A DNA stretch of 33,299 nucleotides from a candidate division WOR-3 bacterium (GTDB taxonomy: Bacteria; Hydrothermota; Tepidihabitantia; Tepidihabitantales; Tepidihabitantaceae). The notes beneath the pieces were generated by a model. The model saw nothing but the letters and a program-made list of their open reading frames with translations. It was not told the origin of the DNA and did no database searches. Numbering within the stretch: the first letter of the stretch is position 1; each line of letters opens with the position of its first letter. A program made the translations under genes and the position numbers. The DNA is taken from assembly GCA_016867815.1 (NCBI GenBank), contig VGIR01000030.1, forward strand, positions 1 to 33,299, in the 5' to 3' direction. This document shows, piece by piece, positions 30,045-31,989 of this stretch.

Positions 30045-30380
30045 ACACAGGGCCGAGGCCGGAGACTGGAACGGCGGCTGGAACTTGGTCAAGTACGGAG
30101 TCAGGACCAGGGCACGGAACCGGGCCAGGAACGGCGCCTGAGACGGAGCGAGGACCAGGGACTGGAACACGGTCCGGCGCGGAGCCTGGAAGAGGGCCGA
30201 GTCCGGGGGCGGGGAGAGAGGTAGGTCCGGGGCCTGAGCCGGGGTCAGGAACGATGCCCGGTACGGGGCGAGAACCAGGGGCCGGAACGGGAGCGAGAAC
30301 GCGGCCTGAAACAGGGCCGAGCAGAGAGTCAGGAACGAGGCCCGGAACAGAGCCAGGCACAAGGCCAAGACCAGGGGTGA
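30045..30380 (-). repeat. 12-bp-period minisatellite (right array), 28 units
   Basis: Twenty-eight consecutive 12-bp units with plus-strand consensus close to GAACNGGGCCNG, for example GAACCGGGCCAG, GAACGGCGCCTG, GAACGAGGCCCG and GAACAGAGCCAG. No indel breaks the phase over 336 bp despite many substitutions. Two minus-strand frames are open with 4-residue periodicity, but the peptides are low-complexity and I do not call a gene. It is the inverted counterpart of 4182-4457. Confidence 0.88.
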
Positions 30381-30492: not shown

Positions 30493-31529
30493 GCCCGTGT
30501 GCCCCTAATCAGATGCTCAAGGCCGTCCTGAAAGGGCTGAGGGCTGGCCAAGCCCAGTCGGTCGCGGAGTACGTCAACCGATGCGAGCGAGTGCTTGACG
30601 TCCCCGGGCCGAGGTTTGTCGTAGACCGGCTCGACCTTCCTGCCCACAATGCGGCAGATTTCACTCACGAGAAAGTTCAGACTGTACCGTTCTCCGACGG
30701 CGACATTACAGAGAAGAAAGGGAGAGGTTGAGGCCAAGGTTGAGATTGAGAGCGGAGTTTCCTCCCCGGCCTTAGCCTCAGCCTTAGCCTTGACCTGTGC
30801 CGCCAGCGGCACTTCGCACGCTGCGAGATTCGCCGCGACGACGTTGGCGACCGGTGTGAAGTCACGGGACTGCTCGCCGTCGCCGTACACGACCGGTTTC
30901 CGGCCTTCGCGAACTGCAGCAATGAACTTGGGAATGACCGCGGCGTACTGGCTGTTCGGGTTCTGGCGCGGGCCGAATACGTTGAAGTAACGGAGCGCGA
31001 CGGTCTCGAGGCCATACAAACGACTGAAGACCCGGCAGTAGTGCTCGCCGGCCAGTTTGCTGACAGCGTACGGAGACAGCGGATTCGGCATCATGCCTTC
31101 GTGCTTGGGCAGTTCTACCGAGTCGCCATAGACGGACGACGACGAGGCGTACACAACGCGCTTAACGCCGCAGTCCCGGGCGGCAATCAGCACATTGAGC
31201 GTACCGGTGGCGCCGACCTCGTGAGTCGTGACCGGGTCCTGCACGGAACGGGGAACCGAGGGCAGGGCGGCCTGGTGGAGAACATAGGTTGAGGTCAAGG
31301 TTGAGGTTGAGGAGGAGCGGAAGGAAGAACCGGACATGGCTGAACGGAGGACCTCAAGGGATCGGATGTCACCTTCGATGAGTTCGATGTCCTTGAGAAA
31401 CGGAGCCAGGTTCTCTCGGCGACCGGTTGAGAAGTTGTCGACTACCCGGACCGTCTCCCCGCGCTTGAGCAGCTCCTCGACGATGCTCGAACCGATGAAG
31501 CCCGCGCCGCCGGTAACTACGTAGATCAT
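30483..31529 (-). CDS. UDP-N-acetylglucosamine/glucose 4-epimerase (WbpP/GalE-like) with two repeat-encoded insertions
   Basis: A 348-residue extended SDR. GGAGFIG (7-13), DNFSTGRRENL, QAALPSVPRSVQDP, the serines in YASSSSVYG, Y154-x3-K158, RYFNVFGPRQNPNSQYAAVIP and RPGDVKHS all identify the WbpP-type UDP-GlcNAc 4-epimerase group. Two stretches do not belong to the family: residues about 68-81 and about 244-271. Both are encoded by hexanucleotide repeats. Without them the protein would be about 306 residues, the usual size. The first lies just before the YVLHQAA strand, the second before the CNVAVGERY strand, so both sit at loop positions and all catalytic residues are intact. The start abuts a heptad array with no Shine-Dalgarno. 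The last three codons are repeat words. Confidence 0.9.
   Translation of the reverse strand: MIYVVTGGAGFIGSSIVEELLKRGETVRVVDNFSTGRRENLAPFLKDIELIEGDIRSLEVLRSAMSGSSFRSSSTSTLTSTYVLHQAALPSVPRSVQDPVTTHEVGATGTLNVLIAARDCGVKRVVYASSSSVYGDSVELPKHEGMMPNPLSPYAVSKLAGEHYCRVFSRLYGLETVALRYFNVFGPRQNPNSQYAAVIPKFIAAVREGRKPVVYGDGEQSRDFTPVANVVAANLAACEVPLAAQVKAKAEAKAGEETPLSISTLASTSPFLLCNVAVGERYSLNFLVSEICRIVGRKVEPVYDKPRPGDVKHSLASVDVLRDRLGLASPQPFQDGLEHLIRGTRAKD
30717..30800 (-). repeat. Hexanucleotide repeat insertion in the epimerase (second loop)
   Basis: On the coding strand GTCAAG, GCTAAG, GCTGAG, GCTAAG give a VKAKAEAKA stretch, followed by CTCAAT, CTCAAC, CTTGGC, CTCAAC giving SISTLASTS. The 6-bp period preserves the reading frame. 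Bases 30725-30743 share a 19-bp word, with one mismatch, with 31286-31304 in the first insertion. Confidence 0.85.
31287..31328 (-). repeat. Hexanucleotide repeat insertion in the epimerase (first loop)
   Basis: The coding strand reads CTCAAC, CTCAAC, CTTGAC, CTCAAC after a CCTCCT start, giving FRSSSTSTLTST between AMSG and YVLHQAA. In related epimerases these positions hold only one or two residues. The frame is kept. Confidence 0.85.
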
Positions 31530-31599
31530 GGTTCTTAGTTCCTGGTTCTTAGTTCTTAGTTCTTGGTTCCTGGTTCCTGGTTCCTGGTTCCTGGTTACC
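31530..31599 (+). repeat. Heptad array, 10 units, between epimerase and four-helix gene
   Basis: Ten 7-bp units in phase: GGTTCTT, AGTTCCT, GGTTCTT, AGTTCTT twice, GGTTCCT four times, GGTTACC. The array begins right after the ATG of the epimerase (31529) and runs 50 nt into the 3' end of the four-helix-bundle gene, supplying its stop codon (TAA, complement of 31549-31551). Confidence 0.92.
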
Positions 31600-31989
31600 G
31601 GGCTTGAACTTGCTGCCTTTGCGTTCAGTCGTGCGGAGGTATCTGGCCAATCCGCCGATCAGACGCGCATTCTCCTGGGCCAATCCCGCAAGCTCTCGGA
31701 ACCCGCGGTCATCGATGTACCCCTGGTCCAATGCAACGTAGAGATGAGAACCGACTTCGCCAGCCGAGCCCAGAGCCATCGACAGGAATTGCTGGAATTC
31801 TCTGGTGCCGCCTCGTCCATGCCCTTCGGCCACATTCGCCATGACGGACACGCAGGCGCGACGAATCTGGTCGCGCAGCGCACAGTCCCGAGCGAAGGTT
31901 CCCTTCGACGTGACGTCGTAGATTCGCCGCGTGAGTTCACGCGCCTTCTTCCAGGCGTCGATCTCCTCGAAGCTCCTGAAGGTGGCCAT
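31549..31989 (-). CDS. Four-helix-bundle protein (S23/IVS family) with a repeat-encoded tail
   Basis: A 146-residue protein. Residues 1-122 match the four-helix-bundle family first known from 23S rRNA intervening sequences: FRSFEEIDAWKKARELTRRIYDVT, then RRACVSVMANVAEGHGR and FLSMALGSAGEVGSHL. The family is structurally related to the Avd accessory protein of diversity-generating retroelements. Its function outside such elements is unknown. Residues about 125-146 (NQEPGTR, NQEPRTK) are a 7-residue repeat written by three-fold reading of the heptad array. The gene is flanked on both sides by heptad arrays, and its ATG comes 6 nt after one. It is not an obvious polysaccharide gene. Confidence 0.9.
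   Translation of the reverse strand: MATFRSFEEIDAWKKARELTRRIYDVTSKGTFARDCALRDQIRRACVSVMANVAEGHGRGGTREFQQFLSMALGSAGEVGSHLYVALDQGYIDDRGFRELAGLAQENARLIGGLARYLRTTERKGSKFKPGNQEPGTRNQEPRTKN

Follow-up and report, generated by a model that had tools for sequence, protein, structure and literature searches.

The epimerase gene of the window (the whole 33,299-nt stretch of candidate division WOR-3 DNA analysed here) raises the question of how repeat DNA of an intergenic kind came to lie, in frame, within a conserved enzyme. Our analysis assigned the gene product to the extended SDRs: its Pfam Epimerase match covers residues 4–241 (E 2.6e-57), its best solved relative, both by sequence and by fold, is WbpP (1sb8, TM about 0.85), and it has the Rossmann GxxGxxG motif, the S-YxxxK catalytic set and the SDR fold. 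The catalytic residues S130/S131, Y154 and K158 do not vary across 26 sequences, and the GGAGFIG motif varies little or not at all, in agreement with the initial annotation, which had seen all catalytic motifs kept; judging from its sequence, the epimerase with both loops is probably still active. The two enlarged loops described there are real by comparison with relatives (sizes in Table 1), and trimming them to the relatives' loop lengths yields about 310 aa, close to the normal length of about 306 residues that had been proposed.

Table 1. Positions of the epimerase, its insert sites and associated arrays (window coordinates unless a locus is named)
Feature	Position	Strand	Basis
Extended-SDR UDP-sugar 4-epimerase (WbpP/GalE-like), intact, 348 aa	30483..31529	-	ORF call, Pfam, structure match, motifs
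Loop 1 insert, residues about 68-81, +12 aa	31286..31328	-	array detection, orthologue alignment, AlphaFold
Loop 2 insert, residues about 244-271, about +26 aa	30717..30800	-	alignment, AlphaFold, RNA folding
Left arm of loop 2 inverted repeat, 33 bp, AGGTTGAGGCCAAGGTTGAGATTGAGAGCGGAG	30725..30757	+	inverted-repeat search
Right arm of loop 2 inverted repeat, 33 bp, CCCCGGCCTTAGCCTCAGCCTTAGCCTTGACCT	30764..30796	+	inverted-repeat search
Third site (loop 0), approximate, empty in the window; between helix 42-47 and strand 48-52	31385..31410	-	alignment, AlphaFold
Neighbouring intergenic 7-bp array (TGGTTCC)	31529..31596	+	tandem-repeat detection
Sorting-type domains with arrays	L109:3837-13132, L110:964-3571, L111:15796-18108 (G000), L127:234-382 (G007)		

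Both inserts are built of GGYYRA hexamer DNA, and they share the word AGGTTGAGG[C/T]CAAGGTTGAG (30725-30744 and 31286-31305), which at 20 bp with one mismatch is slightly longer than the 19 bp first reported. The loop 1 insert consists of a TCAACC hexamer array (31286-31312, found in a single orientation by TRF) and an S-rich lead, with the TCAACC-type hexamers in the coding strand. The loop 2 insert runs from a hexamer arm (GTCAAGGCTAAGGCTGAGGCTAAGG) through a centre to an inverted hexamer arm (CTCAATCTCAACCTTGGCCTCAACC), giving an imperfect inverted repeat at 30725-30796 whose two 33-bp arms flank a 6-nt loop. Its RNA is predicted to fold into a hairpin of -34.9 kcal/mol (z -3.2), nearly no structure is predicted for the loop 1 RNA, and the hairpin architecture of the loop 2 insert is also present between genes. 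The AlphaFold model of the epimerase (pLDDT 86.7, pTM 0.87) places loop 1 between helix 58-66 and strand 82-85, and loop 2, itself a low-confidence stretch, between helix 227-239 and strand 271-276; pLDDT falls below 50 at residues 71-74 and 245-267. As modelled, both inserts are disordered helix-to-strand connections in loops of a surface type, a placement that the initial annotation had raised. In Rossmann folds, the helix-to-strand side is the one opposite the cofactor. Next to the gene, a 146-aa ORF at 31549-31989 (minus strand), which we take to resemble an IVS23S four-helix protein, has a C-terminal GNQEPGTRNQEPRTKN that the neighbouring 7-bp array encodes.

We compared the window epimerase with orthologues from its genus and family (G002, G007, G005, G003 and G001) and with 20 relatives from other phyla. 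The latter have no such loops: loop 0 is 8 residues long (5 in one case), loop 1 is 4 and loop 2 is 3–7, and these unrelated genomes yielded no example of the same loops encoded by non-repetitive DNA. In the window, G002, G007, G005, G003 and G001, respectively, loop 0 measures 8, 8, 15, 17, 47 and 8 residues, loop 1 measures 16, 15, 18, 4, 4 and 4, and loop 2 measures 31, 27, 26, 27, 51 and 53, with hexamer or heptamer arrays encoding most of the extra length. Loop 2 holds an insert in all six clade orthologues, and the other five genomes have filled it with differing repeats: its DNA consists of hexamer arms in the window, G007 and G005, of 7-bp arrays in G002 and G003, and of both kinds in G001. 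Loop 0 is empty in the window, G002 and G001; in G007 and G003 it holds 7-bp arrays, and in G005 a hexamer array. The loop 1 insert of G002 (TSTASSSGP) is encoded by DNA without recognisable repeats. G001 and G003 have core proteins with 91% identity; their loop 2 sequences agree in the right half and differ in the left. All inserts in the six epimerases are in frame and without a stop codon. Because the same loops hold different repeats in orthologues, we conclude that the insert site is stable while its content turns over.

A second enzyme repeats the loop pattern of the epimerase independently. It matches Pfam GDP_Man_Dehyd, and our reading of its motifs suggests that it is RmlB-like, i.e. 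a dTDP-glucose 4,6-dehydratase-like protein. One of its loops contains about 24 aa encoded by a hexamer hairpin in G000, about 11 aa encoded by a 7-bp array in G004 and about 80 aa encoded by hexamers and heptamers in G003, and the insert is absent from G005, G007 and seven genomes of other genera. These inserts, too, are in frame and without a stop codon, and AlphaFold predicts a disordered helix-to-strand loop. Beyond the length of the empty site, G000 and G004 have flanking residues in common (SDSW, DSW), which suggests that content was replaced within an older insert.

Segments with periods of 6, 7 and 8 bp and their multiples are abundant in the sampled DNA of this genome, G002, G003 and G007, the commonest base period being 7 in G000, G002 and G003. 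Markov shuffles gave zero segments at periods 6–8, and such segments are almost absent in the control genomes G006 (same family) and G031 (same class). The GGYYRA pattern (three units plus GG, GGYYRAGGYYRAGGYYRAGG) has 41 matches in this genome compared to 0 for a reversed-pattern control, which found one match across all 65 genomes. Six genus members, the window genome included, have 23–167 matches, G007 has 9, and each of 58 further genomes of the class has 0–4. The hexamer family is concentrated in the window genus and one sister genus. The family occurs both within and between genes, and the presence of the same array families in intergenic DNA and in genes bears out the earlier proposal that the repeat-generating process enters genes. 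Assembly artefacts are an unlikely source, as several separately assembled genomes have inserts and G007 is a single 3.26-Mb contig. Arrays with a 12-bp period, e.g. CAGGAACAAGGC (window 30085-30370), lie mainly between genes even though their period is divisible by 3.

What, then, decides whether an array is tolerated within a gene? Genes were called by a simple script based on codon usage, covering about 12% of this genome, the statistics refer to sampled stretches, and an in-gene array was counted as confirmed by homology if both of its flanks matched one protein of another genome. Of the 278 array clusters in the sampled stretches, 60 (in 43 genes) are confirmed in this way, and all 60, which are not fully independent as some lie in related C-terminal domains, have the same frame on both sides (0 shifted). 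The best period is 7 in 45 of them, 6 in 12 and 8 in 3. The initial annotation had stated that the period is 6 bp inside genes and 7 bp outside, which is wrong, and had seen the 6-bp period as the keeper of the frame. Period as a filter is refuted, because the 45 period-7 arrays keep the frame all the same; the orthologues of G002, G003 and G001 likewise carry in-frame 7-bp arrays. Survival of only frame-compatible forms, as had been proposed, agrees with the unanimous frame, but period 6 is not the reason for it. The ratio of genic to non-genic density is 0.30 for period 6, 0.18 for period 7, 0.077 for period 8 and 0.045 for period 12, and periods 6 and 12 are not over-represented in genes relative to 7 and 8 (31/94 vs 88/218, P = 0.25). 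Moreover, 7-bp arrays are stop-free on both strands in 43 of 78 genic cases compared to 19 of 100 intergenic ones (P = 6.6e-7); a preference of the coding strand for the stop-free orientation (15 vs 10) is not significant. Gene-breaking arrays were not found among these, a test that is one-sided because frameshifts were also missing at random positions (0/509). Selection sees a total length divisible by three and freedom from stop codons, and not the period.

We consider it likely that these observations are best explained by a lineage-specific array process together with the filling and refilling of loops and with selection in genes. Such a mutational process would build and spread arrays of degenerate 6-, 7- and 8-bp units, roughly 20–120 bp long, some of them as two inverted arms able to form a hairpin, and the copies would land within genes or between them. 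In genes, purifying selection would keep only those with a length that is a multiple of three, with no stops and in tolerant loops, which in the two modelled enzymes would be helix-to-strand connections; the outcome would be an extra disordered loop in an enzyme that is still functional. Once opened, a loop could in related species receive added repeats or have its repeats exchanged for another family. The spreading would consist in the copying of array blocks, most likely by replication template switching via the hairpin plus slippage, and not by a dedicated transposase. More tentatively, it is possible that a DNA-level process of the genus builds hairpin-prone arrays, spreads blocks of them and refills the same loops with different families, such that conserved enzymes keep gaining disordered loops.

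Block copying is consistent with the identical three-unit blocks of this genome, which form 19 pairs compared to 5.7 expected under independent unit choice (P = 5.5e-4, after removal of a segmental duplicate and some overlapping windows), an excess which argues that array blocks are copied. In syntenic DNA, G001 and G003 differ by arrays that were gained or lost. For example, a 77-bp array of 7-bp period lies between two hexamer arms in G001 (L277, C95) and is absent from G003 C109, a case of arrays nested in arrays. An inverted-arm score of 12 is reached by 30 of 241 clusters; among as many shuffles and as many random places, 0 and 8 reach it. Inverted arms around arrays are enriched in G000 and G002, less clearly in G003, and were found in none of the G007 clusters; because long inverted arms accompany only some of the arrays, the hairpin may be dispensable. 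Transition-only hypermutation between units was considered and rejected, as 51–58% of adjacent-unit differences (lags 6, 7, 8 and 12) are transitions, which is unremarkable; the apparent excess stems from the choice of the GGYYRA pattern.

Alternatively, a Y1 transposase of the RAYT/IS200 type or a reverse transcriptase could move the arrays, which would then be non-autonomous mobile elements resembling REP/REPINs or MITEs. All seven array-rich genomes have 4–7 Y1_Tnp genes and most array-free family members have none, multi-unit blocks repeat verbatim, and several array elements are inverted repeats. We nevertheless find this unlikely: Y1_Tnp genes also occur without arrays (12 in G015, 5–13 in many class members), the share of Y1 genes with an array within 700 bp (5/20) is no higher than that of random positions (9–55% by genome), the reverse transcriptase domain RVT_1 is absent in G000 and G005, and fixed termini were not seen, with unit family, period and length all varying. 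REP/REPIN with RAYT, which would have palindromes beside a Y1 gene, was rejected on the same 5/20, and a diversity-generating retroelement product, which would come with a reverse transcriptase and a template/variable repeat pair, was rejected on the absence of an RVT_1 domain in G000 and G005. As for MITE features, inverted arms are found in part of the arrays, flank repeats at the empty sites in G001/G003 synteny are fuzzy, and clean target-site duplications were not established there. Searches for Y1 transposase and reverse transcriptase domains identified no generating machinery.

Still less probable is that the loops or mRNA hairpins were selected for a function in regulation, assembly or secretion, making the inserts adaptive; all six clade orthologues have an insert at loop 2 and C-terminal sorting-type domains are recurrent hosts, but sequence, unit family and length all vary at a given site, the loop 1 RNA is almost unstructured, and individual inserts are missing in close relatives. 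We regard as improbable that the loops grew within the gene by ordinary local codon slippage, unrelated to the intergenic arrays. Slippage commonly yields in-gene tandem repeats, and the units are imperfect; yet the same genus-concentrated GGYYRA family is found inside and outside genes, multi-unit words are common to separate loci, the same loop has different repeat families in different species, and inverted arms are not a product of simple slippage. Post-transcriptional removal or ribosomal skipping of the inserts (intron- or bypass-like), which a hairpin within coding sequence might suggest, seems extremely improbable, given that the inserts of both enzymes and all 60 in-gene arrays are in frame and stop-free; a skipped insert needs neither, and skipping is not needed to explain in-frame inserts.

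For the proposed array process, the closest precedents are the Rickettsia palindromic elements, for in-frame insertion, and the cyanobacterial STRR heptamers, for the class of array. The former are small palindromic repeats found between genes and in frame in unrelated metabolic genes, where they are thought compatible with protein function (PMC10969869), and our arrays resemble them in both locations. However, Rickettsia palindromic elements are defined families of ~150 bp, each with a conserved peptide, whereas the arrays here consist of degenerate 6–8 bp units, change at one site, span about 20–120 bp or more and have no fixed ends that we could see. They are not Rickettsia palindromic elements proper, as congeners differ at one and the same site in the sequence, the unit and the length of the insert. 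STRR/heptanucleotide repeats (in cyanobacteria; the GGGAATC type of Xanthomonas/Nostoc; TAACTGA in Beggiatoaceae) are dispersed and patchy, with a 7-bp period and an unknown mechanism (PMC4692102, PMC4679880). Our arrays likewise include dispersed tandem degenerate 7-bp units, but the main finding is the 6-bp family that accompanies them. STRR-type heptamers are mainly intergenic, with G-rich ones under-represented on the coding strand of genes; the arrays here differ in their frequent in-frame insertion into enzyme loops, their coexisting 6- and 8-bp families and their inverted arms. In the P6b stem-loop of the Nostoc tRNA-Leu intron, complementary 7-nt motifs are present and the repeat class has been replaced at a fixed site between lineages (PMC4476775), but there the setting is a group I intron whose RNA fold is the function, whereas here coding sequence, many families and many sites are involved. 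In Nematomorpha mitochondria, inverted repeats lie within functional protein genes (PMC6649704); those are perfect long palindromes encoding conserved regions, whereas the arms here are imperfect, are built of repeats and encode extra loops that vary. We found no earlier report of the combination seen here in the open-licence literature.

Heptanucleotide arrays were recognised in bacteria decades ago, and to our knowledge no mechanism has been given for them. Here, arrays lie within conserved enzymes whose orthologues in congeners have the same sites empty or filled differently, and frame, stop codons and loop position give a direct readout of what selection tolerates; these sites and this readout open the generating process, and likewise the origin of new protein loops, to comparative tests. 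They also mark natural positions where the epimerase and dehydratase folds accept 10–80 extra residues. Many further enzymes that look functional carry arrays; the other hosts include DegT aminotransferases, SelA, pyruvate:ferredoxin oxidoreductase, a glycosyltransferase and a C25 peptidase. In the sorting-type domains (PTIVRGVLxL..LLDATGRKV..LAPGVYFxR..KVVI; Table 1), 6- to 8-bp arrays recur at the same two turns, and in a pyruvate:ferredoxin oxidoreductase-type protein (L077:107-1876) hexamers encode a charged V/A-K/E linker of ~30 residues between two Pfam domains. L070 and L071 (G000 contigs C27 and C12) contain the same hexamer array with near-identical flanks, which represents a segmental duplication or an assembly duplicate. 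At three places (L007, L008 and L065), a GC-rich hairpin-type sequence (GCGGCTGCGCCGC or similar) directly adjoins a hexamer array.
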